Source: Winogradskyella thalassocola (GTDB lineage Bacteria; Bacteroidota; Bacteroidia; Flavobacteriales; Flavobacteriaceae). From it: a DNA stretch of 64,000 nucleotides. A program made the position numbers and the translations under genes. Shown here piece after piece: positions 2,899-27,982 of this stretch (the first letter of the stretch is position 1; each line of letters opens with the position of its first letter). The notes beneath the pieces were generated by a model. The model was not told the DNA's origin. It ran no database searches and was given only the letters and a program-made list of their open reading frames with translations. The stretch lies in contig NZ_FNCZ01000002.1 of NCBI RefSeq assembly GCF_900099995.1, positions 310,001-374,000 on the forward strand. The letters are read 5' to 3'.

Positions 2899-2965
2899 CA
2901 AAATTAGAGCGAAAAAAGAGGGTCTGAAATGATCTGAGTCAGCACGTATAAACTGATATCAATCA
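2899..2965 (-). promoter_or_regulatory. Ferritin operon promoter with two TGAY-N4-RTCA boxes
   Basis: On the minus strand the -7 element TAATTTTG is at 2906-2899. Box 1, TGATCTGAGTCA (2930-2941), is centred 33 bp upstream of the -7 centre. Box 2, TGATATCAATCA (2954-2965), is centred 24 bp further upstream and lies in a longer perfect palindrome (arms AACTGAT/ATCAGTT, 2951-2968). The geometry is that of a class II CRP/FNR-type activator site with a second upstream site. The proposed regulator is the REC-CRP protein at 21234-22286 (inference). Confidence 0.75.
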
Positions 2966-3042
2966 GTTTGATTTGAGTCTATTATAAAACGAAAAGGCAG
3001 AGGAGGTTAGGTTAGGATAAAGGCTTGAAATAACAGATTTAT

Positions 3043-4724
3043 TTATAGTTTGTTATTCCTAAATATTGAGATGACCACGATAAAACCGAGAATAGCAGAT
3101 AGCGTAAACCCAATAGCACCGAGTAATGGAATTCCTTTTACTTTAGGAGGCATATCTGCAATAACCAAAAGCGCAGATCCAATAGATAAGGCTGCGATAA
3201 TAATAGCAACCACCAAACGGTTAGAGGCTTTGTTTAATGAATGTCTTAGTTCTTCAAGACCTTTAATGTCGTGGATGATGGTGAGTTTGCCATCCTTTAT
3301 TTTATGTATAATACTATTAACGTCTTCTGGTAATGTGTCTATTAAAGCATTGATGTTTTGAACTCTTGTCCAGTTTTTTTTTAATAAACGTTTTATACTG
3401 AATTTTTTACGACTAATAGTAGCCATAAAAGGTTGTAGATTGGTATTGATATTAAAATTAGGATCAAGTTTTAAACCGACACCTTCAATTATGACCAATG
3501 CTCTCATTAACATATATAAATAGTGCGGTAAGGTGACTTTGTTTTGATATAATACGTTTTTGAATTTCTCTATAACGGCTTCTAATTTTATACTTTTTAT
3601 GGAGGTATTGCTGACATCTTCAATTAATTCATACAAATCATATTCTAACTTTTTATAGTCTGGTATTTCGGTTTTAATGGCGATTTTTTCAAGTATAGGA
3701 ATGATTTTCTTAGTGTCTTTACGCATAAAGTTTAAAAGTAATTCTCCAAGAGCTTCCTCATCGTTAGGCATAATTGTGCCCATCATTCCAAAATCTATAA
3801 AACAAATTTGTCCTGAATTAGGCATCACAAAAATATTTCCTGGATGCGGATCGGCATGAAAGAACCCATATTCTAAGATTTGTTTTAGGTATAAATCAAC
3901 ACCCACATTACCAATTTGTACAGGATCTATTTGATGTGCTTTTAGTTTTTCTATATCCGATATTTTAATACCATCAATAAATTCCATGCAGATAATATGA
4001 TTGTTAGACAATGCTCTATAGACTTTAGGAACATAAATGGCATTATTTCCTTCAAAATTTCGTGCAAAATGTTCAATGTTGTCTAGTTCTTTAGAAAACA
4101 GTAATTCTTCTTTTATATTTTTTCAAAGGCTGAAACGATACTTAAAGGCTGAAATGCTTTTGCTTGTGGACTATATTTATCTAATGTTTTTGCAATGTGA
4201 TACATTATCTCAATGTCAGAAGCAATTACGTCATCGACATTGGGACGTTGTATTTTTAGCACAACGTCATCTCCATTTAACAATTTTGCTTGGTGCACCT
4301 GTGCTAGAGAAGCAGCTGCTAAAGGTTGCGGGTTAACGGATTGAAAATAATCACTAATGCTAATGTTTAATTCAGTTTCAATTGTTTTTTCAACATTAAA
4401 ATCTTTTAAAGAGGGAACATTATTTTGAAGTTTTTCGAGCTCCTTAATGAGTTTAGGAGGTAACATATCTTCTCGGTTACTAAAAATTTGTCCGAGTTTG
4501 ACATAGGTAGGACCTAATTCTTCTAATACCATTCGGATCCGTTCAAACTTAGAAAACGAAAGTAGTTTTTGAGTTTCAGGATGTTTTTTTAAATAGCTTT
4601 TTGGTATTAGCTTTTTTAGTTGATCATTAGCCATAACATCCTCAAAACCATACTTTGTGAGCACACTAAAAAGGGTATTGTACCTTTTGAGCTCTTGTTT
4701 ACTGGGCAATTTGAGATCAATCAT
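3043..4724 (-). pseudogene. ubiB: UbiB/ABC1-family atypical kinase, frameshifted
   Basis: UbiB/ABC1 proteins are membrane-tethered atypical kinase/ATPases linked to quinone and lipid homeostasis. The N-terminal half (4724-4113) carries the family-specific KxGQ motif (K-L-G-Q, residues 76-79), the Ala-rich loop A-A-A-S (136-139) and the Lys of V-V-L-K-I-Q-R-P. The C-terminal half (ORF from 4011 to 3043) carries H-A-D-P-H-P-G-N-I-F (catalytic loop), F-I-D-F-G (DFG-like) and two C-terminal membrane helices. Between them the frame shifts at the A6 run at 4118-4123. One added A gives continuous coding (F-E-K-N-I-K-E-E-L through to the second ORF) and a protein of about 560 residues, the normal length. 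It is last in the operon that starts at 5765. The shift is either a recent mutation or a homopolymer sequencing error. Confidence 0.85.
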
Positions 4725-4743
4725 AGCTTAGGTTTTATAGTGT

Positions 4744-5130
4744 TTACATGTATTTTGTAAGAAAGCGGAAAAACTCTTTTTTAAGTTCGGCATAGATATG
4801 TCTTTGTGTTTCCATACGGTTTCTAAATTCTACATGATTTTTTACAAGGACTCTATCTAGGGCATCTTCGCCTTCGTTATCTAGAGCAGACATGTTTGCT
4901 TCGTGCACATGGATGTCGTGTTGTAATATATCGATAACTTCTCCTTGGCGTATAAAGGCATTTTGATAATGTTCTAATTGTGCTAGCATATCTTTATCTG
5001 TCCAGCGCAACACCAATTCTTCTAAACGATTTTTAAATGATTTTAATTCATCTTCCCAAAAGGCAAGTTCACTTCTCCATTGGTTATGTTCAAAATGTAA
5101 GTCTGAATTGTAAATAACTTGAGTTTTCAT
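4744..5130 (-). CDS. Coiled-coil protein, regulon family A
   Basis: Product of 128 residues, soluble, with no signal peptide or membrane segment and no catalytic motif that I recognise. It is rich in Glu, His and aromatic residues. It starts with a W-R-S-E-L-A-F-W-E-D-E-L segment and continues as two or three long helices. The same layout (W, then E-L-x-F/I, helix, long charged helix) appears in the products at 5909-6367 and 28020-28469, which are also driven by TGAY boxes, so the three may be divergent paralogues. It lies between the ArsC-like gene and ubiB with gaps of about 20 bp. Function unknown. Confidence 0.7.
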   Translation of the reverse strand: MKTQVIYNSDLHFEHNQWRSELAFWEDELKSFKNRLEELVLRWTDKDMLAQLEHYQNAFIRQGEVIDILQHDIHVHEANMSALDNEGEDALDRVLVKNHVEFRNRMETQRHIYAELKKEFFRFLTKYM

Positions 5131-5537: not shown

Positions 5538-5765
5538 CTATTTGCGTTGTTCTGTTTCAATTTTATAGGTTTCCAAATGGCGTTGTATAAGGTCTTTAAG
5601 GCTTTCTAAATATTCTTGCATAACTTTTTTATCTATATGAGGATGACTCGTTATAGGCAAGGTCATTGGGTTTTCGTTTAGATCACGATAGAGCTCTGGG
5701 TAATTGGTCTCAATGTATAAAGTCAGTTGCGTTATTTCTGTTAGTATATTTTTTAAACTTTCCAT
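5538..5765 (-). CDS. Small 75-residue operon-leader protein, family B
   Basis: I place the start at the ATG at 5765 (M-E-S-L-K-N), not at the longer frame from 5816. The predicted -7 element (5786-5793) lies downstream of 5816, and the TGAY box (5817-5828) sits directly beside that codon. The 75-residue product matches the product at 15171-15383 (I-E-x-N-Y-P-E-L-Y, then E-N/S-P-x-T-x-P, S-H-P, and Y-L-E-S/T-L-K). Both are the first gene of an operon under the same type of promoter. No known domain is recognised. It is probably a small two-helix soluble protein. Confidence 0.75.
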   Translation of the reverse strand: MESLKNILTEITQLTLYIETNYPELYRDLNENPMTLPITSHPHIDKKVMQEYLESLKDLIQRHLETYKIETEQRK

Positions 5766-5785: not shown

Positions 5786-5828
5786 TAAATTTAAGTGCTA
5801 ATCTTAGCTCTAGCAATGATTTCTATCA
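5786..5828 (-). promoter_or_regulatory. TGAY-box promoter of the 5765-3043 operon
   Basis: The box TGATTTCTATCA (5817-5828) is centred exactly 33 bp upstream of the -7 element TAAATTTA (5793-5786, minus strand). It drives the small protein, ArsC-like, coiled-coil and UbiB genes. It also decides the start codon at 5765. Confidence 0.72.
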
Positions 5829-5908: not shown

Positions 5909-6367
5909 TTATTTTTTCTTATTCATGATTTGTTCTACAAATTTTTCATTATCAATAACGTATTCTGTAATGGCTAAAATGTCCTTTCTATTGGCTCTAA
6001 AGGCCTTAACAAAATTGGCAATATCATCTTCTAAAGATTCGTGTTCTTCTCTAAGTTTATGAGAATCGTATTTAAATGCATCGTCAATAAGGTTTGCCAA
6101 ATGAATTAGATGGATACTTGTGCGTTTTAATAAGGATATACATTGTGCGCTTGTTTCCATTAAATTTACTTCTACATCTCTGACTTTATCTATGTTTTCT
6201 TTTTTTGACATCCATAAAAAATACTTATCTATGAGATGTTGTAAGAATCTTAAATCATCTTTATAGAATAAGAGATCTGCTTTTAGATTTTCTGTAAGTA
6301 TGTATAATTCTTGCCAGTCAGCTTCAAGAACATATCGACCTTTAGGTCTACTTCTAAGATCATTCAT
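5909..6367 (-). CDS. Helical coiled-coil protein, regulon family A
   Basis: Product of 152 residues, all-helical by composition, with no signal peptide or membrane segment. It opens with a W-Q-E-L-Y-I-L-x-x-N-L-K-A-D-L-x-F segment followed by heptad-like Leu/Ile, and ends in a basic tail (M-N-K-K-K). The layout matches the products at 4744-5130 and 28020-28469: an N-terminal Trp, then x-E-L, then a helix ending near F-L-x-x-L-I-D-K-Y-F, then a long charged helix. It is a single-gene unit divergent from the Usp gene at 6517. Function unknown. Confidence 0.7.
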   Translation of the reverse strand: MNDLRSRPKGRYVLEADWQELYILTENLKADLLFYKDDLRFLQHLIDKYFLWMSKKENIDKVRDVEVNLMETSAQCISLLKRTSIHLIHLANLIDDAFKYDSHKLREEHESLEDDIANFVKAFRANRKDILAITEYVIDNEKFVEQIMNKKK

Positions 6368-6384: not shown

Positions 6385-6427
6385 TAAAATTATTAAACGC
6401 TAGGTGTATATCATATGATGTAGGTCA
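6385..6427 (-). promoter_or_regulatory. TGAY-box promoter, leftward (gene 6367-5909)
   Basis: The box TGATGTAGGTCA (6416-6427) is centred 33 bp from the -7 element TAATTTTA (6392-6385, minus strand). It is paired with a separate box for the divergent Usp gene. The two box centres are 34 bp apart. Confidence 0.7.
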
Positions 6428-6449: not shown

Positions 6450-6492
6450 TGACTCAAGTCATTTCCTAATACGGAATTGGGCTTTAATTTTG
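6450..6492 (+). promoter_or_regulatory. TGAY-box promoter, rightward (Usp at 6517)
   Basis: The box TGACTCAAGTCA (6450-6461) lies inside the palindrome ATGACT-CA-AGTCAT. Its centre is 33 bp from the -7 element TAATTTTG (6485-6492), a full match to TAnnTTTG. Transcription would start near 6499, which excludes the longer frame beginning at 6430. Confidence 0.75.
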
Positions 6493-6516: not shown

Positions 6517-7389
6517 ATGAAACGAATTGTATGTGCCGTCGATTATTCAAAAAACTCAGTCATAGCATTAAAATATGCCCTTGCTATAAGTAAAACATTA
6601 GAAGCAAACGTATTAGTTACTCATATCTATACCTACCCAATGCCATTAGAATTGGAGGGTAGTTATCCAATTCCAGGTTTAGTGAGTGATACTTATAAAG
6701 AAGAACATGCTAAACTTGAGGAATTTTGTGTTAAACATTTAGGACAAGATGTTTACGAAATGAATGTGAGTATGGAGGTTGTAGAGGGAAAATCTGTTGT
6801 TGATACTATCGTTGAAAAGGCAGATGAAATTCAAGCTTTTATGATTGTTACAGGAATGAAAGGGGTGAGTTTATTGAAAGATTTAATTATGGATAATACG
6901 ACAAGACAGCTTATTGATAAGGCAAATTGTTTAGTCTTAGCAGTACCTTCTGATGCCAACTATTCCGTTGTAAAAACTATGGTGTATGCTACTGATTTTG
7001 ATGCCGATGCAGACATTGAAGTGATTAAAAAAATATCAGGAATAGCCAAGGGATTTGGTGCTACATTAAAAGTGGTTCATATTTCAACTCAGAAAGATTA
7101 TGAAGTAGAATCGCAAATGGAGTGGTTTAAAACGATGCTAAAAGAAAAGGTAGATTATGATAAAATAACATTCGAAATTATATTTTCAGAAATCATTTAT
7201 GAATCCCTCAGAGTTTATTTAGGCGACGTTGGTGCCGATATGGTCGTGTTGTTAGAAAGAGAAGAAAACGGTTTTTTAAAGAAAATTTTTCATCGTGATA
7301 TAGTGAAAAAACTAGAAGGCTATGGTAAGGTGCCTGTAATGAGCTTTAATGAAAAGAATTTTGGGATGTTTCGCTTTTTAGATCTCTAA
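6517..7389 (+). CDS. Universal stress protein, tandem Usp domains
   Basis: The start is the ATG at 6517 (M-K-R-I-V-C-A-V-D-Y-S). The frame is open from 6430 but that codon lies upstream of the promoter. The 290-residue product has an N-terminal Usp domain (about 1-145) with the nucleotide-binding tail M-I-V-T-G-M-K-G-V-S (compare GxxGxxG(S/N)), and a degenerate second domain (V-K-T-M-V-Y-A-T-D-F-D). Usp proteins bind ATP or other nucleotides and are induced by growth arrest and oxygen limitation. It is one of four such proteins in the window. It is a monocistronic unit ending at the hairpin at 7486-7521. Confidence 0.88.
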   Translation: MKRIVCAVDYSKNSVIALKYALAISKTLEANVLVTHIYTYPMPLELEGSYPIPGLVSDTYKEEHAKLEEFCVKHLGQDVYEMNVSMEVVEGKSVVDTIVEKADEIQAFMIVTGMKGVSLLKDLIMDNTTRQLIDKANCLVLAVPSDANYSVVKTMVYATDFDADADIEVIKKISGIAKGFGATLKVVHISTQKDYEVESQMEWFKTMLKEKVDYDKITFEIIFSEIIYESLRVYLGDVGADMVVLLEREENGFLKKIFHRDIVKKLEGYGKVPVMSFNEKNFGMFRFLDL

Positions 7390-7579: not shown

Positions 7580-7622
7580 TGATGAATATCATTTCGTTAT
7601 TCCTCTTTTATAAATAGCTTTA
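7580..7622 (+). promoter_or_regulatory. TGAY-box promoter of the D-2-hydroxyacid dehydrogenase
   Basis: The box TGATGAATATCA (7580-7591) is centred 33 bp upstream of the -7 element TAGCTTTA (7615-7622). The dehydrogenase starts at 7649. Confidence 0.7.
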
Positions 7623-7648: not shown

Positions 7649-8656
7649 ATGAAAGTACTTGTTTATAGTTCTAAAGAATTTGAAATTCCATATTTAGAAA
7701 AAGCCAATAACAAAAAGCATCAATTCACTTTTATTACTGAGGCGTTGTCTTCAGAAACCGCAATAAAAGCAATAGGTTATGATGCCATATCTATTTTTTC
7801 GTCAGATGAAGCTTGTTTTATGACGGTAGAAAAACTTAAAGATTTTGGAGTAAAATACATCGCTCTAAGATCGGTTGGATTTAATAATGTTAATTTAAGA
7901 GCTGCGGCGCGGCTAAACATTAAAGTGGCTCATGTTCCTAAATATTCTCCTTTTGCGATTGCAGAGCATGCGGTAGGGTTATTACTCGCCTTAAATAGAA
8001 AGCTTATAACGTCTAATTATCGGGTGACACATTATAATTTTAATCTCAATAATTTAGTTGGATTTGATTTAAAAAATAAAACTGTTGGCATCATTGGTAC
8101 AGGGCGAATAGGTAGTGTAATGACTAAAATTATGCACGGCTTTGGCTGTAAATTATTGGGTTATGATATTGAAGAAAATAAGACGCTAAGCGAGCAATAC
8201 AATTTAAAGTATGTTACGTTACAAGAGTTGTGTGCGCAAGCCGATATTATTTCTTTACATGTACCATTAAATAATGACACGTTTCAACTTATTAATGAGG
8301 ATGTTATTTCTGAAATGAAACATGGTGTGATTCTAATAAACACCTCTAGAGGTGACGTTATTAATACAGAACATGTAATAGAAGGATTACTAAAAAGAAG
8401 AATAGGAGCTTTAGGCATTGATGTTTACGTAAATGAAAGAGCTATTTTCTTTAAAGATCATTCCCAGGAGATTCCTAACGATGATTTTTTAATAAAACTA
8501 AATGCATTTCCTAATGTGCTTATTACTGGGCATCAAGCGTTTTTAACCGATGAAGCTTTGGCAAAAATTGCTGAGGGTACGATATATAATTTAGAGTGTT
8601 GGAGTAGAGGTGAAGACACCGAAAATGAATTAACTAATAGCGATAATCTTCTTTAA
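7649..8656 (+). CDS. ldhA: D-2-hydroxyacid dehydrogenase (D-lactate dehydrogenase type)
   Basis: Probably reduces pyruvate to D-lactate with NADH, a fermentative reaction that regenerates NAD+. The 335 residues contain the substrate-loop motif R-S-V-G-F-N-N-V (R-S-x-G-x-(D/N)), the A-E-H-A-V-G-L-L-L-A-L-N-R signature, the Rossmann motif G-I-I-G-T-G-R-I-G, L-I-N-T-S-R-G-D-V, and the catalytic His in T-G-H-Q-A-F-L-T. The length and the GHQAFLT block match the LdhA group rather than glycerate or formate dehydrogenases. Its control by a TGAY box supports a low-oxygen function. Exact substrate specificity cannot be read from the sequence alone. Confidence 0.87.
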   Translation: MKVLVYSSKEFEIPYLEKANNKKHQFTFITEALSSETAIKAIGYDAISIFSSDEACFMTVEKLKDFGVKYIALRSVGFNNVNLRAAARLNIKVAHVPKYSPFAIAEHAVGLLLALNRKLITSNYRVTHYNFNLNNLVGFDLKNKTVGIIGTGRIGSVMTKIMHGFGCKLLGYDIEENKTLSEQYNLKYVTLQELCAQADIISLHVPLNNDTFQLINEDVISEMKHGVILINTSRGDVINTEHVIEGLLKRRIGALGIDVYVNERAIFFKDHSQEIPNDDFLIKLNAFPNVLITGHQAFLTDEALAKIAEGTIYNLECWSRGEDTENELTNSDNLL

Positions 8657-8676: not shown

Positions 8677-8901
8677 TTACGATTTTAATCTGTTTTCTGT
8701 GCCCACAATAGGATAACCTATGCGAGATAGGGCATGTTTTGCCATTTCAAAATCATGTTCGGTATGATAATCAAAAGCGACAGTACAAGCTTCAGTATTT
8801 ATATCAACTTCACTGATGTTTTCTATTTTTAATAGTCTATTCATAATCGTTTTTATACAACGATCACATTTTATGTTTTCTATATGAACAGTAGTTCTCA
8901 T
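8677..8901 (-). CDS. Heavy-metal-associated (HMA) domain protein
   Basis: A 74-residue single HMA domain: beta-alpha-beta start V-H-I-E-N-I-K-C-D-R-C with the CxxC metal site (residues 13-16), then a helix and D-I-N-T-E-A-C-T-V-A-F-D-Y. It resembles copper chaperones of the CopZ/Atx1 fold. The usual M-x-C-x-x-C methionine is Lys here, so the metal may differ. It has a divergent promoter arrangement with the Mce/Mla operon. It ends 20 bp from the convergent dehydrogenase. Confidence 0.82.
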   Translation of the reverse strand: MRTTVHIENIKCDRCIKTIMNRLLKIENISEVDINTEACTVAFDYHTEHDFEMAKHALSRIGYPIVGTENRLKS

Positions 8902-8920: not shown

Positions 8921-8963
8921 CTAAGATATCTTAAACAATTGAAATATATTGTGATAATAATCA
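8921..8963 (-). promoter_or_regulatory. TGAY-box promoter, leftward (HMA protein)
   Basis: The box TGATAATAATCA (8952-8963) is centred 33 bp from TATCTTAG (8928-8921, minus strand). That -7 deviates at one position from TAnnTTTG. The same TTAG variant is seen at 27975-27982. Confidence 0.6.
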
Positions 8964-8974: not shown

Positions 8975-9017
8975 TGACGCTTGTCATTTTAAATGGTCTT
9001 ATTATCCTGTACATTTG
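8975..9017 (+). promoter_or_regulatory. TGAY-box promoter of the MlaEFD-like operon
   Basis: The box TGACGCTTGTCA (8975-8986) is centred 33 bp from the perfect -7 element TACATTTG (9010-9017). The -7 overlaps the TTG at 9015, so a start codon there is impossible if this promoter is used. Confidence 0.75.
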
Positions 9018-9035: not shown

Positions 9036-9818
9036 ATGTTAGTAATTACACAAATAAGAATGCAATTAAGGTCTCTTTTCACAGAGATAGGAGAGCTTTC
9101 ATATTTTACAGCTCGATTTTTTAAAAACGTATTTAATCGTCCTTTTGAGTATAAAGAGTTTTTGCGTCAATGTTACCAAATGGGCAATAAGTCGTTATTA
9201 TTGGTTGGTATTACGGGGTTTATTATTGGTTTGGTACTAACCTTACAAACCCGACCGACATTGATGGAATTTGGTGCCGTAAGTTGGATGCCTTCAATGG
9301 TTGGTATTTCTATAGTGAGAGAAATAGGTCCTATATTAACGGCATTAGTTTGTGCAGGCAAGATTGGATCTGGAATAGGTGCAGAATTAGGTTCTATGCG
9401 CGTTACCGAACAGATTGATGCTATGGAGGTCTCAGGGACCAATCCGTTTAAATATTTAGTTGTTACTCGGGTTTTGGCAATAACTTTAATGTTACCGCTC
9501 TTGGTGATTATTGGTGATGCTATTGCACTTTATGGGTCATATTTGGTAGAAAGCTCTAAAGGCAATGTGTCGTTTTTACTTTATTTCAATCAAGTTTTTG
9601 AAGCTTTAGAATTTGGAGATATCATACCGGCGACAATTAAAACTTTCTTTTTTGGATTTGCAATCGGTATCGTCGGCTGCTTTAAAGGTTATTTTTGTAA
9701 AAAAGGAACAGAAGGAGTTGGTAAAGCCGCTAACTCTGCAGTTGTGTTTACCTCATTGTTATTATTTATAATAGATTTTATTGCTGTTTTTGTAACGGAT
9801 ATATTCTACGATTTATGA
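9036..9818 (+). CDS. mlaE: MlaE-type permease of a Mce/Mla lipid ABC transporter
   Basis: Inner-membrane permease of a phospholipid or hydrophobic-substrate ABC transporter (MlaE/Ttg2B family). I choose the ATG at 9036 over the TTG at 9015, which lies in the -7 element; an ATG at 9060 is also possible. The roughly 260-residue product has the family hallmarks: a membrane hairpin L-L-L-V-G-I-T-G-F-I-I-G, then I-V-R-E-I-G-P-I-L-T-A-L-V-C-A-G-K-I-G-S, G-A-E-L-G-S-M-R-V-T-E-Q-I-D-A-M-E-V-S-G, and C-terminal helices. It overlaps the next gene by 4 bp (ATGA), so the genes are translationally coupled. Confidence 0.88.
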   Translation: MLVITQIRMQLRSLFTEIGELSYFTARFFKNVFNRPFEYKEFLRQCYQMGNKSLLLVGITGFIIGLVLTLQTRPTLMEFGAVSWMPSMVGISIVREIGPILTALVCAGKIGSGIGAELGSMRVTEQIDAMEVSGTNPFKYLVVTRVLAITLMLPLLVIIGDAIALYGSYLVESSKGNVSFLLYFNQVFEALEFGDIIPATIKTFFFGFAIGIVGCFKGYFCKKGTEGVGKAANSAVVFTSLLLFIIDFIAVFVTDIFYDL

Positions 9819-10582
9819 AAGAAGAAACAAACATACAAGATCGAGAGGTTGTTCTTCAAGTCAAAGATTTATATAAAAGTTTTGGAGATAACCAGGTGTT
9901 AAATGGGTTTAATATGCAGTTGCATAAAGGAGAAAACCTTGTGATAATGGGGAAATCTGGCTCGGGAAAATCGGTGATGATTAAATGTTTGGTCGGTTTA
10001 ATGGAGGCGGACAGAGGTACGATTACGGTAATGCATAAAGATATAACCAAACTGAACGAAAAAGCCTTAGATATATTGAGATCGGATATTGGGTTTTTAT
10101 TTCAAGGTAGTGCTTTGTATGATTCAATGACAGTTAGAGAAAACTTAGAGTTTCCTTTAAGACATCATACCGATATCAGTAAAGATGCCAAATCCACTGA
10201 ACAATTAGTGTTGAATACGTTAGATAGTGTTGGTTTAGCCAATACCATAGATTTAATGCCTTCTGAATTGTCTGGTGGTATGAAGCGACGTGTTGCTTTA
10301 GCAAGAACACTAATTCTTCAACCTAAAATAATGTTATATGATGAGCCCACAAGTGGGTTAGATCCTATTACATCAAAAGAAATTATTCTGCTGATGCAAG
10401 ACATTCAAAAGAAGTACAATACATCATCGCTTATTATAACACACGATGTGGATTGTGCCCGGGTAATTTCGGACCGAATGATATTGCTTATAGACGGCAT
10501 AGATTATGCAGTTGGCACGTTTAAAGAATTATCCACTTCAAATGATCCGAAAATAAAAGCATTTTTTAAACAAGATTTATGA
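9815..10582 (+). CDS. mlaF: MlaF-type ATPase of a Mce/Mla ABC transporter
   Basis: The 255-residue ATPase has a Walker A G-K-S-G-S-G-K-S, Q-loop F-L-F-Q-G-S-A-L-Y-D-S-M-T-V-R-E-N (typical of MlaF), the signature L-S-G-G-M-K-R-R-V-A-L-A-R-T, Walker B I-M-L-Y-D-E-P-T-S-G-L-D and the H-loop I-I-T-H-D. It overlaps both neighbours by 4 bp in a tight mlaE-F-D operon. No mlaB or mlaC follows, as is common outside Proteobacteria. Confidence 0.92.
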   Translation: MKEETNIQDREVVLQVKDLYKSFGDNQVLNGFNMQLHKGENLVIMGKSGSGKSVMIKCLVGLMEADRGTITVMHKDITKLNEKALDILRSDIGFLFQGSALYDSMTVRENLEFPLRHHTDISKDAKSTEQLVLNTLDSVGLANTIDLMPSELSGGMKRRVALARTLILQPKIMLYDEPTSGLDPITSKEIILLMQDIQKKYNTSSLIITHDVDCARVISDRMILLIDGIDYAVGTFKELSTSNDPKIKAFFKQDL

Positions 10583-16140: not shown

Positions 16141-16141
16141 G

Positions 16142-19129: not shown

Positions 19130-19172
19130 TAAAATTACTTTTGCTAGAAGTCTTATGAAATGATATTGGTCA
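19130..19172 (-). promoter_or_regulatory. TGAY-box promoter of the WG-repeat/exporter operon
   Basis: The box TGATATTGGTCA (19161-19172) is centred 33 bp from the -7 element TAATTTTA (19137-19130, minus strand). The gene starts at 19101. Confidence 0.72.
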
Positions 19173-19197: not shown

Positions 19198-19578
19198 TTA
19201 TTTCTTTTTTAATTCTAAATCAAGTTTTGCAAGCAGTATTAATTCAGACTTGTTTTGTCCAGAAAAACTGGTAGTGATAGCACTGGCTGTTTTTAAAATC
19301 TTAGAACTTATAGTTGTATCAAACAACGTAGGATGAGCTCTTTTAAAATCTACAAATCTCTGAAAACAAGTCATAGGATTGTGTTCTTCATTACTTTGTA
19401 ATTCATTAAAGGTTTCTAAAATGTATTTTGCATCTTCATTTAATGATAACCAATCCTTATAAATAATAGTTTGAAGGGTCTTAAATTCTTCGTCTCTTAC
19501 ACAATTGTCTGTTGCAGCAATAGCAAAAAAGAGATGGCCAAGACGTCGATAAAATTCTATATGTGATTTTTGGTTCAA
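19198..19578 (-). CDS. TerB-like helical protein
   Basis: Product of 126 residues, all-helical, with the TerB-like pattern L-G-H-L-F-F-A-I-A-A-T-D-N-C-V-R-D-E-E-F near the N-terminus (compare A-x-A-D-G-x-V-x-x-x-E). TerB domains are metal- or membrane-associated and tied to tellurite and other stresses. It is read away from the kinase gene at 19732. The box in the intergenic gap gives the correct spacing for this gene and not for the kinase. Confidence 0.65.
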   Translation of the reverse strand: MNQKSHIEFYRRLGHLFFAIAATDNCVRDEEFKTLQTIIYKDWLSLNEDAKYILETFNELQSNEEHNPMTCFQRFVDFKRAHPTLFDTTISSKILKTASAITTSFSGQNKSELILLAKLDLELKKK

Positions 19579-19596: not shown

Positions 19597-19639
19597 TAAA
19601 AATAAATAGTTTTCTGCTTTATTCATATGATATAAATCA
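19597..19639 (-). promoter_or_regulatory. TGAY-box promoter (TerB-like gene)
   Basis: The box TGATATAAATCA (19628-19639) is centred 33 bp from the -7 element TATTTTTA (19604-19597, minus strand). In the rightward direction the equivalent position (19663-19670) reads TAGCAATT, a poor match, so the kinase operon seems not to be class II-activated from this box. Confidence 0.65.
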
Positions 19640-19731: not shown

Positions 19732-21237
19732 ATGTTTGATCAAGACCGAGATATTTTTAATATTCTTTTAGATTCTATTTCTGAAGGGGTTGTTGTGGTC
19801 GATGAACATCAAAAGATTGTTGAGGTTAATAAAGCTGGCGAAATTATGTTTGGCTATGATGAGGGTGAGCTTTCTAATCAACCCTTAAATATTTTAATCC
19901 CGAAGAATTATCATGCAAATCATGGTGCACATTTTAAAGGGTTTGTTAAAGAGCATAAACAACGTAGCATGGGACATGGCCGTGACATCTATGGCGCAAA
20001 AAAGGATGGTAGCATTTTCCCGATTGAAGCGAGTTTAAATCCGTTTAATTTTCATGGTCATAATTTTATTATGACATTAGTCATTGATATTACAGAGCGA
20101 AAAAAACTAGAACAAGAAAAAAATCATTTAGCTAAAATCTTTCTAGAATCCCTTAACGAGATTTATGTGTTTGACGCTAAAACTTTAAAATTTATTAATG
20201 TTAATCAAGGGGCTGAAAAAAATATAGGTTATAGCGTAGAAGAACTTAAGTCGATGACACCTCTAGATATTAAACCTAATTATACGGAAACTAGGTTTAG
20301 GAAGGAGATAGAAACACTTAATAATGGTAGCGTAGAAAAAATAGAGTTTGAAGCCGTACATCAACGGAAATGTGGTAGTACTTATCCTGTAAGTATTCAT
20401 TTACAACGTTCTAAGCTTGGTAATAGAGATGTATATGTTGCTATTATCTTAGATATTACAGAACAAAAAAGCTATACTGAACGCTTAGAAAAAACAGTTG
20501 CTTTAAGAACGGATGAATTAAAAACGGCTTTAGCAGCAGAAAAAGAGCTTAACGATTTAAAAACGAAATTCCTATCCATGGTGTCTCACGAGTTTAAAAC
20601 ACCATTAAGCGGAATTTTAACATCAACAATGTTGTTGAGTAAATATAAGCTCACCGAGCAACAAGATAAGCGCGAAAAACACATCATGACCATTACAGAT
20701 AAAGTACAATATCTGAATGTTATTTTAAATGATTTTCTGTCTGTTGAAAAACTAGAAAAAGGAAAGATCAATTATAAATTCTCAAACTTTAAAATAAGTA
20801 AGGTTTTAAATGAAGTTATTTATAATGCCAATATGATTTTAAAAGATGGGCAACACATTAACTATCCAGAAAACATTGATGATTTATCTCTATTTCAAGA
20901 TGAAAAAATAGTAGAATTAGCGTTGTCTAATTTAATATATAACGCTATTAAATATTCATCTGAAAACACTATTATAGATATTGAAATTTCTCAGAATAAC
21001 GATACAACCGTTTTTAAAATAACGGATAATGGTATCGGTATTCCTCAGAAGGATCAAAAAAATATTTTCGGACGGTATTTTAGAGCCGAAAATGCCCTTC
21101 TTATGCAAGGAACTGGTATTGGATTAAATATCGTGAAAGATCATTTAGAGAACCTAAATGGTAACATTACATTTACAAGCATAGAGCATAAAGGCTCAAC
21201 GTTCATTATTGAACTCCCTAACAAAGCACAATTATGA
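19732..21237 (+). CDS. PAS-PAS histidine kinase, FixL-like haem-PAS candidate
   Basis: Soluble 501-residue kinase without a membrane segment. PAS1 is at residues about 8-125 and PAS2 at about 131-245, then coiled-coil, HisKA with phospho-acceptor H286 (V-S-H-E-F-K-T-P-L), and HATPase with the N box, the D-N-G-I-G-I box and the G-T-G-I-G-L box. In PAS1, H64 (A-N-H-G-A-H-F) and R84 (G-H-G-R) lie 20 residues apart, followed by K-K-D-G-S-I-F-P. FixL has the proximal haem His and distal Arg with the same spacing, followed by R-R-D-G-T-T-F-P. An oxygen- or redox-sensing role is therefore inferred; haem binding is not proven. The stop overlaps the start of the regulator gene by 4 bp, so the two are a cognate pair. 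Confidence 0.87.
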   Translation: MFDQDRDIFNILLDSISEGVVVVDEHQKIVEVNKAGEIMFGYDEGELSNQPLNILIPKNYHANHGAHFKGFVKEHKQRSMGHGRDIYGAKKDGSIFPIEASLNPFNFHGHNFIMTLVIDITERKKLEQEKNHLAKIFLESLNEIYVFDAKTLKFINVNQGAEKNIGYSVEELKSMTPLDIKPNYTETRFRKEIETLNNGSVEKIEFEAVHQRKCGSTYPVSIHLQRSKLGNRDVYVAIILDITEQKSYTERLEKTVALRTDELKTALAAEKELNDLKTKFLSMVSHEFKTPLSGILTSTMLLSKYKLTEQQDKREKHIMTITDKVQYLNVILNDFLSVEKLEKGKINYKFSNFKISKVLNEVIYNANMILKDGQHINYPENIDDLSLFQDEKIVELALSNLIYNAIKYSSENTIIDIEISQNNDTTVFKITDNGIGIPQKDQKNIFGRYFRAENALLMQGTGIGLNIVKDHLENLNGNITFTSIEHKGSTFIIELPNKAQL

Positions 21238-22286
21238 AAAAAGTATTACTAATAGAGGACGATACCGTATTAAGAGAAAATACAGCTGAATTATTAGAAC
21301 TTTCAGATTACGAAGTTATCACAGCTGTTAATGGAAAAAAAGGTCTCGAAATGGCGAAAATTAATAAACCAGACATCATTGTTTGCGATATTATGATGCC
21401 AATTCTCGATGGTTATGGTGTTTTAGAAGGCTTGTCTAAAGACAGTGATACTAAGTTTATACCTTTTATTTTTTTATCTGCTAAGACAGAACGCCAAGAT
21501 GTGAGAAGAGGTATGGAATTAGGTGCTGATGATTACATTACGAAACCTTTTACAGAAGACGAAATTATAAATGCCATTGAAAGTAGAATTGCAAAAGTGG
21601 AGCTATTGAAAGAAGAACAAGAATCTCTTCAAAATACCACAACAAGCAATGAGGATGAATTAAGAACTTTAGGTGACCTAAAAAACTTTTTTGATGATAA
21701 TGGTATAATTTCTAATTATAGTAAAAATGATATTATTTATAACGAAGGGCATAACTCTAACTTTATCTACTTAATCTTAAAAGGTGTTGTAAAATGCTAC
21801 AAGTTTGATACAAAAGGAAAAGAATTGACAACGGCACTTCATGCAGAAGATGACCTTTTTGGTTACACTTCATTTACTCAAAATATACCCTATAGAGAAA
21901 CTGCTATTGCTATGAAAGATGTAGAATTGGCTGGCGTTTCTAAATCAGAATTAACCGATGTGTTGGAGAATAACCATAAATTAACGTTAGAGGTAATTCA
22001 ATTATTAACCGAAGATGTTACAGGTGTTAAAGATCAGTTACTACTCATGGCTTATAGCTCCGTGCAACGAAAAACAGCCTCGACCATTTTGAGATTTGCA
22101 GAAAAATTAAATTCAAAACCAAACGATTCAATTGTCATCTCTAGAAATGACTTGGCAAGTGTTGCAGGTATTGCTACTGAAACCTTAATAAGAACTATGT
22201 CAGATTTTAAGAAAAAAGGGATTATAGATATGGAAGGTAGAAATATTAAAATTTTAGATCTTCAAAAACTACATGATATCACTTAA
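21234..22286 (+). CDS. Response regulator with CRP/FNR-type DNA-binding output (REC-CNB-HTH)
   Basis: The 350-residue product combines a receiver domain (residues 1-120; acidic pocket E8-D9-D10, phospho-acceptor D52 in C-D-I-M-M-P, K104 in T-K-P-F) with a cNMP-binding-fold domain (about 145-260; Y-N-E-G-H-N-S-N-F-I-Y-L) and a winged HTH (about 275-340; S-R-N-D-L-A-S-V-A-G-I-A-T-E-T-L-I-R). The recognition helix keeps the E316 and R320 pair (E-T-x-x-R) used by CRP and FNR to read TGA. No FNR-type Cys cluster is present. This fusion would join the jobs of FixJ and FixK. It is the proposed activator of the TGAY-N4-RTCA promoters. Confidence 0.9.
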   Translation: MKKVLLIEDDTVLRENTAELLELSDYEVITAVNGKKGLEMAKINKPDIIVCDIMMPILDGYGVLEGLSKDSDTKFIPFIFLSAKTERQDVRRGMELGADDYITKPFTEDEIINAIESRIAKVELLKEEQESLQNTTTSNEDELRTLGDLKNFFDDNGIISNYSKNDIIYNEGHNSNFIYLILKGVVKCYKFDTKGKELTTALHAEDDLFGYTSFTQNIPYRETAIAMKDVELAGVSKSELTDVLENNHKLTLEVIQLLTEDVTGVKDQLLLMAYSSVQRKTASTILRFAEKLNSKPNDSIVISRNDLASVAGIATETLIRTMSDFKKKGIIDMEGRNIKILDLQKLHDIT

Positions 22287-22364: not shown

Positions 22365-22407
22365 TGACCAATATCATATTTTAAGAACCCTCATCGATTT
22401 AGATTTG
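22365..22407 (+). promoter_or_regulatory. TGAY-box promoter (Usp at 22430)
   Basis: The box TGACCAATATCA (22365-22376) is centred 33 bp from the perfect -7 element TAGATTTG (22400-22407). The start codon is at 22430. Confidence 0.75.
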
Positions 22408-22429: not shown

Positions 22430-23269
22430 ATGAACATTTTATTACCAACAGATTTTTCTGAAAACTCGTGGAATGCCATTTCTTATGCTATTGATTTTTT
22501 TGAACCAGTAGCATGTAATTTTTATCTACTTCACGTGAATAGGCTAGATACCTTTATGTCTGGTGATAGTGGCTATGTGCCAACTGCAGATCAAATTGAG
22601 GAAATATATGTTAAACCTTCAAAGCTTAAGTTAAAAACGTTACTTAAAGAAATTAAAGAACACCGCAAACCAAATAAAAATCATAAGTTTTATACGTTAA
22701 GCGATTATGGTTTTTTCTTAGAGTCTATTAGAAAATACGTTAATAAGAAAAAGATTGACTTATTGGTAATGGGAACTAAAGGCGCATCAGGACTCAAAGA
22801 ATATATTGTCGGTAGTAATACAGGAGACATTATAACAAAAGTAAAATGTACAACATTGGTAGTTCCTGAAGATGCTAAATACAAACCGCTTAAAGAAATT
22901 GCATTTCCAACAGATTTTAACCTCTCTTATGATTTATTATCGCTTCAGCCATTTACGGATATTTTAAAAACTGTAGAAGCGAGTTTACATATCGTTCATA
23001 TTCAGAAAAAAAATGCGACGCTAAATACAGAACAGCTTGAAAATAAAGATGTGTTAAGCGATTATTTTGAAGAGTTTAAACCTAGTTTTCATTTTCTAAC
23101 TAATGGAAAAGTAGAAGATGCTATACAATGCTTTGTTGAAAGTAGAGATATTAATATGATTGTCATGGTTGCAAAGAATCTCAACTATTTTCAGAGTATA
23201 TTATTTCATTCTAATGTAGAAAAAATCACGTATCACACAGATATACCATTTCTGGTTTTACATGAATAA
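22430..23269 (+). CDS. Universal stress protein, tandem Usp domains
   Basis: A 279-residue protein with two Usp domains: domain 1 (M-N-I-L-L-P-T-D-F-S-E-N-S-W, nucleotide motif V-M-G-T-K-G-A-S-G followed by V-G-S-N-T) and domain 2 (I-A-F-P-T-D-F-N-L-S). Domain 1 has the G-x-x-G-x9-G-(S/N) type ATP-binding motif. It is first in an operon with a small membrane protein. The sequence is close to the products at 23870 and 24762, so these three arose by local duplication; the one at 6517 is more distant. Confidence 0.9.
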   Translation: MNILLPTDFSENSWNAISYAIDFFEPVACNFYLLHVNRLDTFMSGDSGYVPTADQIEEIYVKPSKLKLKTLLKEIKEHRKPNKNHKFYTLSDYGFFLESIRKYVNKKKIDLLVMGTKGASGLKEYIVGSNTGDIITKVKCTTLVVPEDAKYKPLKEIAFPTDFNLSYDLLSLQPFTDILKTVEASLHIVHIQKKNATLNTEQLENKDVLSDYFEEFKPSFHFLTNGKVEDAIQCFVESRDINMIVMVAKNLNYFQSILFHSNVEKITYHTDIPFLVLHE

Positions 23270-23281: not shown

Positions 23282-23668
23282 ATGGGAAATTCAATTTTTT
23301 TAGCAAAGTTTTGGGGATGGTATCTTATTATTTTCTTTTTAATTTTAAGTCTAAACCCTAAACGTATTAAGCAGATCTTTAACGACCTTAAAGATGAAAA
23401 ATTCTTAATTATTTTTTCATTTGTTGCCATAATTGTAGGACTATTAAATGTACTGTTTCACAATATATGGGAGCCTAACTATAAAATAATTGTGACGCTA
23501 ATTGGTTGGTCATCTTTATTTTTTGGATTAGCCTTATTTATGTTTCCAAAACCAACCGTTTACTGGCTAGAGATTATTAACATAAAAATGGTGCAAGTGA
23601 TTTATACATTATTGTTTTTGATTGGTATCTTTTTGCTTAATGTGGTTTATAATATTGTACCTATATAG
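23282..23668 (+). CDS. Small four-helix membrane protein
   Basis: The 128-residue product consists mainly of four hydrophobic segments (about 8-22, 40-58, 67-88, 103-125), joined by short loops with a charged cytosolic-type loop K-R-I-K-Q-I-F-N-D-L-K-D-E-K. No family motif is recognised. It starts 12 bp after the Usp stop and so is co-expressed with it. Function unknown. Confidence 0.75.
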   Translation: MGNSIFLAKFWGWYLIIFFLILSLNPKRIKQIFNDLKDEKFLIIFSFVAIIVGLLNVLFHNIWEPNYKIIVTLIGWSSLFFGLALFMFPKPTVYWLEIINIKMVQVIYTLLFLIGIFLLNVVYNIVPI

Positions 23669-23802: not shown

Positions 23803-23845
23803 TGATATATATCATTGTTTTATGTTTTTGAGTGCTTTAACTTTA
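23803..23845 (+). promoter_or_regulatory. TGAY-box promoter of the Usp-nuclease-MBL operon
   Basis: The box TGATATATATCA (23803-23814) is centred 33 bp from the -7 element TAACTTTA (23838-23845). Transcription near 23852 supports the ATG at 23870 and rules out the longer frame from 23771. Confidence 0.72.
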
Positions 23846-23869: not shown

Positions 23870-24712
23870 ATGTTATCCGTTCTACTTCCCACCGATTTTT
23901 CCGAAAATTCTCAGAATGCCATTAATTACGCTGTACAATTATTAAAAGACGAAAAGTGTACGTTTTATTTATTTAACGCGTATACACCTGTTATTTATCA
24001 TGTGGAATATGTTCTTGGTTACCCTGCTCAATTTGGCTTAGGAGATGCTGTTAGAAATACATCGCAGAATAATTTGAATGCTATAGTTTCAAAACTTAAT
24101 GACACTTATGCTAACGATAATCACAAGTTTGAAACATTTGCAAGATTCGATACGCCAGTGTTGGGCATTAAAGAGTTCGTCGAAGAGTATAAAATTGATT
24201 TTGTCGTTATGGGAACTAAAGGGGCCACTGGAGCAAAAGAAGTGCTATTAGGCTCAAATACAGTGCATGTGTTCAAAGATGTAAAATGTCCTATTTTGGC
24301 TGTTCCATCAAGCTTTTCTTTCGAAGCTCCTCACGAGATTTTATTTCCTACCGATTTAGATGTAAAATATAACGGTTCGAATCTTAAAATTCTAAAAAAT
24401 TTAGTAGACTCCAATCATGCTAGACTAAATGTTTTACATGTGTCAACAGGTTCTGAACTTAATGAAAAACAAAAATCAAATAAAGAAAAACTAGAGTCAT
24501 TATTTAAAAACTCAGCGTTTTTGTTTCATCAGTTGAAAAGCATGGAAATTACGCATGCTATAAATGAATTTCAAATAAAACATAAAATCAATCTCTTGGT
24601 GATGATAAATAATAAGCATTCTTTTTTTGAGAATCTGTTCTTTAAAAATACAATTAATCAGATTGGTTTTCATTTAAACGTTCCTTTTTTAGTAATTCCG
24701 TCAGAGCCGTAA
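23870..24712 (+). CDS. Universal stress protein, tandem Usp domains
   Basis: The start is the ATG at 23870 (M-L-S-V-L-L-P-T-D-F-S-E-N-S-Q-N); the frame is open further upstream but across the promoter. The 280-residue product has N-terminal nucleotide motif V-M-G-T-K-G-A-T-G followed by L-G-S-N-T, and second domain I-L-F-P-T-D-L-D. It is first in a run of four rightward genes: Usp, Usp, ATP-cone nuclease, MBL. A small GC hairpin near 24704-24721 may give partial termination. Confidence 0.9.
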   Translation: MLSVLLPTDFSENSQNAINYAVQLLKDEKCTFYLFNAYTPVIYHVEYVLGYPAQFGLGDAVRNTSQNNLNAIVSKLNDTYANDNHKFETFARFDTPVLGIKEFVEEYKIDFVVMGTKGATGAKEVLLGSNTVHVFKDVKCPILAVPSSFSFEAPHEILFPTDLDVKYNGSNLKILKNLVDSNHARLNVLHVSTGSELNEKQKSNKEKLESLFKNSAFLFHQLKSMEITHAINEFQIKHKINLLVMINNKHSFFENLFFKNTINQIGFHLNVPFLVIPSEP

Positions 24713-24761: not shown

Positions 24762-25595
24762 ATGAAAAAGCACATAGTATTACCCACAGATTTTTCGGAC
24801 AATGCATGGAGTGCAGCCGTTTATGCTTTAAAATTATATGCTGAGGTTGAATGCAAATTTTATTTTTTACACGCTTGGTCAGTTACGACTAATACAACTA
24901 GAACTTACATTACCGCTAATTATGTAGATTCTGTAAAAGATGACGCCTGGCGACAATTAGCTGAATTAAAGGAAATGTCTGAGAATGCTGATAGTAATGC
25001 TAATCATAGTTTCGAGATTATTTTAAGTAGCGATAAATTACAGAAAGCTATTGATGCTACCGTAGAAAAGTATAGTATAGATCTTATTGTAATGGGGACT
25101 AAGGGAGCTTCAAAAACAAAAGAACTATTCTTTGGAAGCAATACTGTTAACACGTTAAAAACAAATTTGTGCCCAATACTAGTTGTTCCAGATGAATTTG
25201 ATTTTATTGAGCCAAAACAAATTGCATTTCCTACAGATTTCAATAGGTTCTATGGAGAGGAATTAGAACCCATAAAATACTTGGCAGAATTATATAACTC
25301 TAAAATCAGGATTGTTCATATTACTAAAAATAGTAAACTCACAAGTACACAAGATTATAATTTGTCGATGCTAAAAGTGTACTTAGAAAACCATCCACAT
25401 ACATTTCATTGGATGCCTGATTACGCTAAAAAACACGAAGAAATAAATGACTTTATTGAAGAGCTGGATATTGATATTCTAGTAATGATAAATTATAAAC
25501 ATAGCCTTATCGAGAATATAATGAACGAACCCGTAGTGCATAAAATTGGGTTCCATCCAAAAGTCCCTTTTTTGGTTATTCCTAGTAAAGCCTAA
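24762..25595 (+). CDS. Universal stress protein, tandem Usp domains
   Basis: The 277-residue product is the third close paralogue: M-K-K-H-I-V-L-P-T-D-F-S-D-N-A-W, nucleotide motif V-M-G-T-K-G-A-S followed by F-G-S-N-T, and second domain I-A-F-P-T-D-F-N. It lies 49 bp after the previous Usp gene, without its own TGAY box, so it probably depends on the promoter at 23803-23845. Confidence 0.9.
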   Translation: MKKHIVLPTDFSDNAWSAAVYALKLYAEVECKFYFLHAWSVTTNTTRTYITANYVDSVKDDAWRQLAELKEMSENADSNANHSFEIILSSDKLQKAIDATVEKYSIDLIVMGTKGASKTKELFFGSNTVNTLKTNLCPILVVPDEFDFIEPKQIAFPTDFNRFYGEELEPIKYLAELYNSKIRIVHITKNSKLTSTQDYNLSMLKVYLENHPHTFHWMPDYAKKHEEINDFIEELDIDILVMINYKHSLIENIMNEPVVHKIGFHPKVPFLVIPSKA

Positions 25596-25682: not shown

Positions 25683-26522
25683 ATGGATATTGCAGATATA
25701 GATATTATTAAATACTCAGGCGAAAAAGTGAAATTTTCGTTAAACAAATTACGTGCCTCTCTAAAAAGAACAGGGGCAGATGATACTATTATTAATCCAA
25801 TCCTAGATAAAGTCAGAGATGAATTGTATCAAGGCATTTCAACGAAAGAAATTTACAATAGGGCATTTGCCTTACTTAAAAAAAACAAGAGCTATTTCGC
25901 ATCAAAATATAAACTTAAAAAGGCTTTGTATGAATTAGGACCAACAGGTTTCCCTTTTGAGCATTTTGTAAGTGCAGTGTTAAATTATTCAGGCTACAAA
26001 ACAGAGGTTGGTAAAATTTTACAAGGAAAATGTGTATCGCACGAAATTGATGTCATCGCCCATAAAAATACAGAGTCAACCCTTATAGAATGCAAATTTC
26101 ATAGTGAACAAGGGCTTAATTGCAATGTGAAAATTCCTTTATACATCAACTCAAGGTATCAAGATGTAAAAGTAAATTGGGATAAAAACTCAAAAGATAA
26201 TGCCAAGTTAACTCAAGGTTGGGTGGTAACCAATACGCGGTTTACAAAAGACGCTTTACAATATGGTAGCTGTTGTGGCTTGTATTTATTGAGTTGGGAT
26301 TTTCCACCGAATAATGGTCTCAAAGATAGGATAGATCGCTTAGGACTATACCCAATAACCGTATCTACGCTACTAAGTCAAAGAGAAAAGCAATTTCTTC
26401 TTAGTAGATCTATTGTGTTGTGTAGAGATTTAATTAACGATAAATTTTATTTAGATCATCTTGGAGTTTCCGAGACACGGAAAAAGAAAATTTTAAATGA
26501 AATCTCTCAATTGTGTACCTAA
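25683..26522 (+). CDS. ATP-cone domain fused to a PD-(D/E)XK (Mrr-like) nuclease domain
   Basis: The 279-residue product has an N-terminal ATP-cone (residues about 8-95; I-I-K-Y-S-G-E-K-V-K-F-S-L-N-K-L-R-A-S-L-K-R-T-G-A), a nucleotide-sensing module. A restriction-endonuclease-like core follows (about 105-215) with H-E-I-D-V-I-A and I-E-C-K-F, giving the D-x(n)-E-x-K catalytic pattern, and a C-terminal helical part. Dinucleotide sensing combined with a nuclease suggests (d)ATP-gated nucleic-acid cleavage; that is inference. It lies between Usp genes and a beta-CASP nuclease and 14 bp before the latter. I see no DNA-methylase partner, so it is not a standard restriction system. Confidence 0.85.
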   Translation: MDIADIDIIKYSGEKVKFSLNKLRASLKRTGADDTIINPILDKVRDELYQGISTKEIYNRAFALLKKNKSYFASKYKLKKALYELGPTGFPFEHFVSAVLNYSGYKTEVGKILQGKCVSHEIDVIAHKNTESTLIECKFHSEQGLNCNVKIPLYINSRYQDVKVNWDKNSKDNAKLTQGWVVTNTRFTKDALQYGSCCGLYLLSWDFPPNNGLKDRIDRLGLYPITVSTLLSQREKQFLLSRSIVLCRDLINDKFYLDHLGVSETRKKKILNEISQLCT

Positions 26523-26536
26523 TTAAATAATAAATC

Positions 26537-27910
26537 ATGGAAAAATTTGCCAAAATCAATTTTTTGGGAGCAGCAGGAGTTGTTACTGGATCAAAATTCT
26601 TAATTGAAACTTCAGAAAAAAATATACTGATTGATTGCGGTATGTTTCAAGGTTTAAAAGAATTAAGAGAGCTTAATTGGGAAGATTTACCCATAGATGT
26701 GGCATCGATTGATGTTGTTTTGTTAACCCATGGTCATTTAGACCATGTTGGCTATCTACCACGGTTATTAAAACAAGGATTTCAAGGCAAAATTAAAGGT
26801 ACTGCTCCAACGCTTGCCATTGCAGAAATAATATTAAAGGATAGTGCTAAAATCCACGAAGAAGAAGCCAATAAAGCCAATAAGGAAAAGTATAGCAAAC
26901 ATCAACCTGCGTTACCATTTTACACCATCAAAGATGCTGAAAATACCATAAAACAATTTGAAATAGAACTTGCAGATAAATGGATTCAGTTATCAGAACA
27001 TATATCTTATCGATTTCAGTATAACGGTCATATTATAGGGTCTACATTTATAGAAATTGATATCAATGGTAAACGCTTTGTGTTTTCTGGAGATATTGGC
27101 AGACGGAATGATTATTTACTCAATGCTCCCAAAAAACCGGAATGGGCAGATTTTTTATGTATTGAAAGTACGTACGGAAACAAAATACATCCAGAAGAAA
27201 ATGTTGAAGATGTCTTAACAGAAATCGTTTTAGAGACTCTACAAAAAAAAGGCAATCTTATTATTCCAAGCTTTGCGGTAGAACGATTACAAACACTAAT
27301 GTATATTCTCTGGAAATTGTATCAGCAAAATAGAATTCCTAATATCCCCATTTTTGTAGATAGTCCAATGGGCAACAACGTGTTAGATGTTTTTAAACGT
27401 TTTCCGAAGTGGCACAAACTATCTATACAAGAATATAATGCCATGTGCAATCATGTCAATATTATTGAATCTTATAAAGAAACTTGGGAAACTATTGATG
27501 ACAAAAGATCTAAGATTATTATTGCAGGCAGTGGTATGGTTACAGGTGGACGTGTACTCACATATCTCCAGCAGCTTATAGATGAGCCCACAACGACTGT
27601 ATTGTTAGTTGGGTATCAGGCCGAAGGTACGCGTGGGAGACAACTTTTAGAGGGGGCGCACGAGATTCGCTTTTTTGGGAAATACTATCCCGTAAAAGCG
27701 ACTATAAAAAATATTGAGAGTCTATCAGCACATGCCGACCAGCAAGATTTGTTAGATTGGGTAAGTGACATAAAAAATGTACCAGAAAATGTCTATTTAA
27801 TTCATGGAGAACCAACAGCGCTCGATGCTTTTAGAGTGAAATTAAAAGATAAATACAATTGGAATGTCACCATTCCAAAATTAACAGATGTTGAAAAAGT
27901 AATGCTATAA
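26537..27910 (+). CDS. Metallo-beta-lactamase/beta-CASP RNA-processing nuclease
   Basis: The 457-residue product has the zinc motif T-H-G-H-L-D-H-V-G (HxHxDH), a later D-I-G motif (F-S-G-D-I-G-R) and a beta-CASP domain (I-P-S-F-A-V-E-R-L-Q-T, D-S-P-M-G). The C-terminal RMMBL part has S-A-H-A-D-Q and Y-L-I-H-G-E-P. This is the CPSF73-like group of bacterial RNases. The expected role is RNA cleavage. Pairing with an ATP-cone nuclease and Usp proteins is notable. Confidence 0.92.
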   Translation: MEKFAKINFLGAAGVVTGSKFLIETSEKNILIDCGMFQGLKELRELNWEDLPIDVASIDVVLLTHGHLDHVGYLPRLLKQGFQGKIKGTAPTLAIAEIILKDSAKIHEEEANKANKEKYSKHQPALPFYTIKDAENTIKQFEIELADKWIQLSEHISYRFQYNGHIIGSTFIEIDINGKRFVFSGDIGRRNDYLLNAPKKPEWADFLCIESTYGNKIHPEENVEDVLTEIVLETLQKKGNLIIPSFAVERLQTLMYILWKLYQQNRIPNIPIFVDSPMGNNVLDVFKRFPKWHKLSIQEYNAMCNHVNIIESYKETWETIDDKRSKIIIAGSGMVTGGRVLTYLQQLIDEPTTTVLLVGYQAEGTRGRQLLEGAHEIRFFGKYYPVKATIKNIESLSAHADQQDLLDWVSDIKNVPENVYLIHGEPTALDAFRVKLKDKYNWNVTIPKLTDVEKVML

Positions 27911-27939
27911 ATATAAAAGGTAATTAATAAACCCTTAAC

Positions 27940-27982
27940 TGATATTTATCATTTTAGTTTTTAGATATACAGATTAACTTAG
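27940..27982 (+). promoter_or_regulatory. TGAY-box promoter (gene at 28020)
   Basis: The box TGATATTTATCA (27940-27951) is centred 33 bp from TAACTTAG (27975-27982), a one-position deviation from TAnnTTTG that matches the variant of the HMA gene promoter. Confidence 0.65.

Follow-up and report, generated by a model that had tools for sequence, protein, structure and literature searches.

A putative activator regulon of the Flavobacteriaceae with promoter boxes at one fixed distance, receiver-CRP/FNR fusions and FixL-like kinases

FNR recognizes a site with the core TGAT-N4-ATCA, which at the class II promoters of its regulon is centred at -41.5. The textbook oxygen cascade of Alphaproteobacteria, FixL-FixJ-FixK, joins a PAS histidine kinase to FixJ, a receiver domain with a NarL-type helix-turn-helix output, and to FixK, a CRP/FNR-type activator free of any receiver domain. 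The FixK/FnrN site is TTGANCNNGATCAANG; in Rhizobium the same FixL-to-FixK logic is wired differently as hFixL-FxkR-FixK, FxkR being a regulator in its own right, whose site lies upstream of fixK (both as given in part of the text of PMC4999443). We analysed a stretch of 64,000 nt from Winogradskyella thalassocola (contig NZ_FNCZ01000002.1, positions 310,001-374,000; hereafter the window), which carries a FixL-like kinase gene, an adjoining gene for a receiver fused straight to a CRP/FNR module, and many TGAY-N4-RTCA boxes near promoters. We propose, as the probable reading of these sequences, that the boxes are class II sites read both by an FNR-like protein and by receiver-CRP (REC-CRP) fusions fed by FixL-like heme-PAS kinases, which would amount to a collapsed FixL-FixJ-FixK pathway.

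A sequence-only reading of the window had listed 13 boxes at 33 bp from a -7 element. Measured from centre to centre, the distance is exactly 33.0 bp for all 13, on the correct strand, and the -7 has the form TAnnTTTG/A or, at two boxes as that reading had it, TAnnTTAG; these two are 8952 and 27940. The further box that it placed upstream, at 2954-2965 and thus ahead of the ferritin promoter, exists as well but without a -7 at 33 bp. Altogether the window holds 24 boxes; shuffled sequences hold 4.44 (standard deviation 2.25), close to the quoted chance rate of one such 12-mer per 16 kb, and none of 100 shuffles reached 24. Fourteen of the 24 are intergenic, within 5,137 of the 64,000 bases (binomial p 4.2e-10), and all 14 fall inside 1-28950. 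No -7 at 33 bp was found for any of the 10 window boxes located in genes.

The same spacing stands out in the whole 4.57-Mb genome. The box followed by N10-40 and TAnnTTTR gives 96 matches, against 39 with the reversed pattern. With the gap fixed at N23 there are 58 matches and only 2 reversed ones, the other 38 being spread over the remaining 30 gaps; the excess is thus confined to one spacing, and matches at other gaps, about as frequent as in the control, were dropped as sites. Neither an equal density of boxes in genes, as counted in the window, nor a random spacing was observed, two of the outcomes that the sequence-only reading had set against itself. In the window and 262.5 kb fetched around the matches, the DNA in which the TTAG form was also scored, we count 65 sites (57 TAnnTTTR and 8 TAnnTTAG), and for 51 of them an open reading frame (ORF) starts 15-70 bp beyond the -7. 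Two islands contain 48 of the 65: one on contig C8 (~27-100 kb), the other on contig C18 (~279-338 kb), of which the window is a part; the other 17 are scattered. By eye from translations, the island sites precede Usp-like, BON-domain-like, Hsp20-like, PEP-synthase-like, peroxiredoxin-like, Mce and exporter genes, and the scattered ones hemN-like, ccoN-like, nirK-like, triose-phosphate isomerase-like and Usp-like genes. The N4 of the box contains G or C in 37 of 48 island sites and 3 of 17 scattered sites (p 2.5e-5, own genome). At island sites the 3' flank of the box is mostly TCATTT-like.

Relatives were examined in the best 80 of 581 loci around regulators related to the window protein, the closest among them being that of Winogradskyella psychrotolerans (87%). 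Each of the 80 loci has at least one site at 33 bp. There are 323 sites at this distance, 0-9 at every other distance from 10 to 61, and a single one at 33 bp when the -7 is reversed. Given these counts, the shuffles and the reversed-pattern control, we rejected the idea that the box is a palindrome arising by chance. Across the phylum (158 genomes), the geometry stands out strongly within the family, and most of the distant genomes show it weakly or not at all; a full-length fusion occurs in 24 of the 158, two further listed genomes (G023 and G047, of 26) having a match to the receiver part only and not being counted as REC-CRP.

The sigma-A -7 box of F. psychrophilum, TAnnTTTG, spans -12 to -5 (PMC9723704, in part of its text). 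Its 8-mer is then centred at -8.5, and a box 33 bp upstream at -41.5, where the centre of a class II CRP/FNR site is expected; to the extent that this mapping carries over, it agrees with the class II geometry put forward in the sequence-only reading. The boxes would thus be class II activator sites at ordinary flavobacterial sigma-A promoters. They could also be repressor operators overlapping the -33 region, since the 3' box flank covers the place where a -33 element would lie. Repressor sites usually vary in position; one fixed distance over hundreds of promoters, at the class II activator position, makes that explanation very unlikely.

Seven HTH_Crp matches occur in the genome, six of them above the cut-off. 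REC-cNMP-HTH_Crp fusions (350-356 aa) account for three of them, one in the window, one at ~295 kb of C18 and one at ~81 kb of C8, each within a site island. A fourth is a classic FNR-like protein whose gene adjoins that of a CcoI-like P-type ATPase (by eye). The window fusion is encoded at 21234-22286 (+ strand), and its gene overlaps by 4 bp that of a PAS-PAS-HisKA-HATPase sensor kinase at 19732-21237 (+ strand); both architectures are from Pfam. Its membership in the CRP/FNR superfamily is seen in the matches to PF00027 (3e-16) and PF13545 (9.9e-14), and FNR and FixK2 are among its PDB matches. It differs from FixJ in that its output is HTH_Crp and not NarL-type, and from FixK in that residues 4-116 are a receiver domain. 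The sequence-only reading had proposed this protein for a binding test. It is indeed a plausible reader of the boxes; overlooked were its fused nature beside a FixL-like kinase, the two other fusions, the FNR-like protein, and the apparent use of the sites by both kinds.

Among 81 fusions compared, receiver residues D52 and K104 and recognition-helix residues E316 and R320 are invariant. The sole cysteine conserved in over half of them is C51, in the receiver; an FNR-type 4Fe-4S cysteine cluster is not conserved in these fusions. The sites share with those of FNR the core and, by the mapping above, the centre at -41.5; the outer T/A of the FNR site is not required here. In the FNR-like protein (L001:1048-1725) we see Cys 4, Cys 7 and a cysteine in the motif EVCFIP resembling the fourth of FNR; by eye the third is missing.

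The first PAS domain of the window kinase, which shares with FixL the proximal His and the distal Arg, finds FixL (1d06, E 5.8e-13) as its best PDB match among 15, followed by DosP. The eight best matches are all FixL or DosP, both oxygen sensors. We compared 76 kinases, the window one and 75 from the 80 loci (a script found no adjacent kinase ORF in L021, L050, L074, L082 and L086): 72 have the proximal His and 54 both His and Arg. With HisKA and HATPase domains behind a heme-type PAS, the window kinase has the composition of FixL. When oxygen falls, such a kinase would phosphorylate the neighbouring REC-CRP protein and switch it on, so that kinase and fusion would reduce the three steps of FixL, FixJ and FixK to a single one. 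We infer oxygen as the signal because the PAS domain resembles that of FixL and because ccoN-like and hemN-like genes are among the targets. It is possible, if doubtful, that the same regulators and sites serve a kinase whose signal is redox state, general stress, nitric oxide or carbon monoxide. Gases other than oxygen can bind to heme PAS domains, His or Arg is missing in some kinases, and many genes of the regulon are for Usp, ferritin, chaperone, MscS and exporter proteins; the eight FixL and DosP matches and the ccoN-like and hemN-like genes behind sites argue the other way. Under oxygen limitation, F. psychrophilum induces cbb3 oxidase and heme synthesis genes (PMC9723704, in part of its text).

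Five loci (L015, L018, L019, L030 and L060) have longer kinases of 626-628 aa beside the fusion, with a PAS domain in which the distal Arg is missing; in L019 and L060 the proximal His is absent as well. Judged by these residues, the longer kinases may sense something other than oxygen.

We scored 149 genomes of the family for the fusions, the FNR-like protein, A/T-type sites (TGAYWWWWRTCATRNT with the fixed -7) and C-type sites (TGAYCNNNRTCATT with the fixed -7). The own genome, from which the site patterns derive, was left out of the association counts, leaving 148; cut-offs were E 1e-70 for REC-CRP and E 1e-40 for FNR, by which diverged copies of either may be missed. Where neither regulator was found, A/T-type sites occur in 1 of 19 genomes (mean count 0.16) and C-type sites in none. 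With FNR only, 47 of 53 genomes have A/T-type sites (mean 3.58) and one has C-type sites. A fusion alone goes with A/T-type sites in 29 of 30 genomes (mean 3.07) and C-type sites in 12; both regulators together, with A/T-type sites in 46 of 46 (mean 7.13, roughly the sum of the two single means) and C-type sites in 21. Thus C-type sites are found in 33 of 76 genomes with REC-CRP and 1 of 72 without (Fisher p 8.5e-11; 6.6e-8 within FNR-positive genomes), and in 20 of the 34 genomes such sites lie at most 50 kb from a fusion gene, 35 of the 71 sites in all.

This genome comparison indicates that both kinds of regulator use the box sites. Were the boxes read by the classic FNR-like protein alone, with the fusions acting elsewhere and merely sharing the islands, one could account for the A/T-type sites of FNR-only genomes, and the recognition helices are indeed close (ATESAIR vs ATETLIR/ATETAIR). 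The sites of the 30 fusion genomes that have no FNR match, of both types, and the near absence of C-type sites where REC-CRP is absent make this improbable. The view that a single regulator serves the sites was likewise rejected, given the seven HTH_Crp matches and the association over 148 genomes.

The fusions themselves fall into kinds that tend to go with different operators. Of 97 fusions (94 from relatives and 3 own), 13 are type A, with the helix TATETAIR in 12 and AAKETAIR in one; they group in a single clade (support 99/97). The fusion of the window belongs to type L. C-type sites occur in all 11 non-own type-A genomes and in 22 of 65 other fusion genomes, and at least two such sites in 7 of 11 and 6 of 65. 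A test set of 246 of 395 genomes, those outside the 149 (own genome excluded), was scanned for the TGAYCT form of the box; G025, G057 and G088 had been met earlier in the phylum-scale scan, and some of the 246 in the RNA search described below. Type A was here assigned, in 20 genomes, not from the helix but by at least 52% identity to the C8 protein among matches down to E 1e-90; in the discovery set type A has at least 54% and the rest at most 48%. TGAYCT sites are present in 19 of 20 type-A genomes (75 sites) and 52 of 226 others (82 sites; p 1.3e-10), and two or more in 16 of 20 and 17 of 226 (p 8.1e-13). The reversed pattern has 9 matches in all 395 genomes; as the 82 sites without type A also exceed this control, the dialect, though enriched with type A, is not restricted to it. 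It resembles the FixK/FnrN site, with C and G at matching positions (part of PMC4999443). Type A being one clade, all its differences are linked, residue 318 (A in type A, L/F otherwise) among them, for which reason we do not claim this residue as the cause of the dialect. Near type-L fusions, in the 80 loci, most sites are A/T-type.

Three tandem copies of ~450 nt each, on the own contig C8 (L090:15353-16700, ~75.35-76.70 kb), begin with a TGAYCT-type box and the -7 TAAATTAG and end with a terminator-like hairpin. Their longest ORF is 26 aa on that strand; the opposite strand has ORFs of at most 71 aa. Relatives occur in G203 (75%), ~2 kb from a type-A fusion gene, and in G337 (70% over ~300 nt), with paired changes in the terminator stem; G241 and G335 have only the 5' part. 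The copies have no Rfam match, and searching Rfam with the window and two loci from the islands gave nothing at the gathering score. From these features they are a candidate regulatory RNA family.

A broader picture, to which we give about even chances, would be a low-oxygen phosphorelay common to the Flavobacteriaceae, from FixL-like kinase to receiver-FixK fusion, in which duplicated fusions diverged in dialect: clade A (TATETAIR) would read TGAYCT...RTCA and drive the tandem noncoding RNA genes, and clade L and FNR would share the A/T-type sites. If this is true, a single cell would run its paralogous islands as parallel circuits, all with sites at -41.5.

Several observations weigh against the proposal that FNR-like protein and fusions share the boxes under an oxygen signal. 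Resemblance to FixL does not prove heme, and the proximal His is missing in 4 of 76 kinases, the distal Arg in 22. The genome encodes three further HTH_Crp proteins, one below the cut-off, besides the fusions and the FNR-like protein. G264 has neither regulator and yet three sites, A/T-type sites are lacking in 6 of the 53 genomes with FNR alone, 10 of the 19 genomes with neither regulator are under 2.6 Mb, and the counts are not independent, as the genomes are related. Outside the family, genomes of the same class with and without a fusion show no clear difference in site number (by eye). TGAYCT sites also occur in the 52 genomes without type A, and, with most sites near type-L fusions being A/T-type, a given window site is not assignable to one regulator.

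The window would represent one kinase/fusion pair within a stress-protein regulon. On the minus strand, box 2930-2941 with its -7 at 2899-2906 precedes ferritin (2330-2842, Pfam), then 1476-2294 and a GpmA-like gene (720-1427, by eye). Box 5817-5828 (-7 5786-5793, minus) precedes a 75-aa ORF (5538-5765) and downstream ORFs that include UbiB-like ones (by eye). The UbiB-like gene (3043-4724) is interrupted, with ORFs at 4113-4724 and 3043-4011, which may reflect a frameshift, an error or a pseudogene. Two boxes are close neighbours: 6416-6427 (-7 6385-6392, minus), before ORF 5909-6367, which has no Pfam match, and 6450-6461 (-7 6485-6492, plus), before a Usp-like gene (6517-7389, by eye). Box 7580-7591 (-7 7615-7622, plus) is followed by a D-LDH-like gene (7649-8656, named by eye). 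Box 8952-8963, with a TTAG-type -7 at 8921-8928 (minus), faces a small CxxC ORF (8677-8901), and box 8975-8986 (-7 9010-9017, plus) a Mce-type transport operon (9036-11568, by eye).

Further on, box 15439-15450 (-7 15408-15415, minus) precedes ORF 15171-15383, a DnaJ-type gene (14275-15171), 13977-14273 and a MscS-type gene (13045-13965). Box 19161-19172 (-7 19130-19137, minus) precedes 18490-19101 and then a HlyD/MacB-like exporter (15466-18483, by eye); box 19628-19639 (-7 19597-19604, minus) precedes ORF 19198-19578, with a TTG start. Beyond the kinase and fusion genes, box 22365-22376 (-7 22400-22407, plus) is followed by a Usp gene (22430-23269) and ORF 23282-23668. Box 23803-23814 (-7 23838-23845, plus) heads two Usp-like genes (23870-24712, the start being a chosen one, and 24762-25595), an ATP-cone/Mrr gene (25683-26522) and a beta-CASP gene (26537-27910). 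Box 27940-27951, with a TTAG-type -7 at 27975-27982 (plus), lies before ORF 28020-28469.

All parts of the system are of known kinds. What sets it apart from FixL-FixJ-FixK is a receiver fused straight to the CRP/FNR module, without a NarL-type FixJ output, and the TAnnTTTG-type promoter. In the part of the literature searched we found no recognizable account of a flavobacterial REC-CRP/FixL system, nor of the fused wiring, the paralogue-linked operator dialect or the strict family-wide geometry; neither 'Fnr' nor 'Crp' appears in the main text of the flavobacterial transcriptome paper PMC9723704. The boxes and their promoters define, by sequence, a strongly supported putative activator regulon for a large bacterial family. 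Because the geometry is fixed, many genomes without annotation can be scanned for candidate targets. The two paralogous clades offer a testable change of protein-DNA specificity, and the kinase/fusion pairs point to a one-step version of the textbook oxygen cascade.

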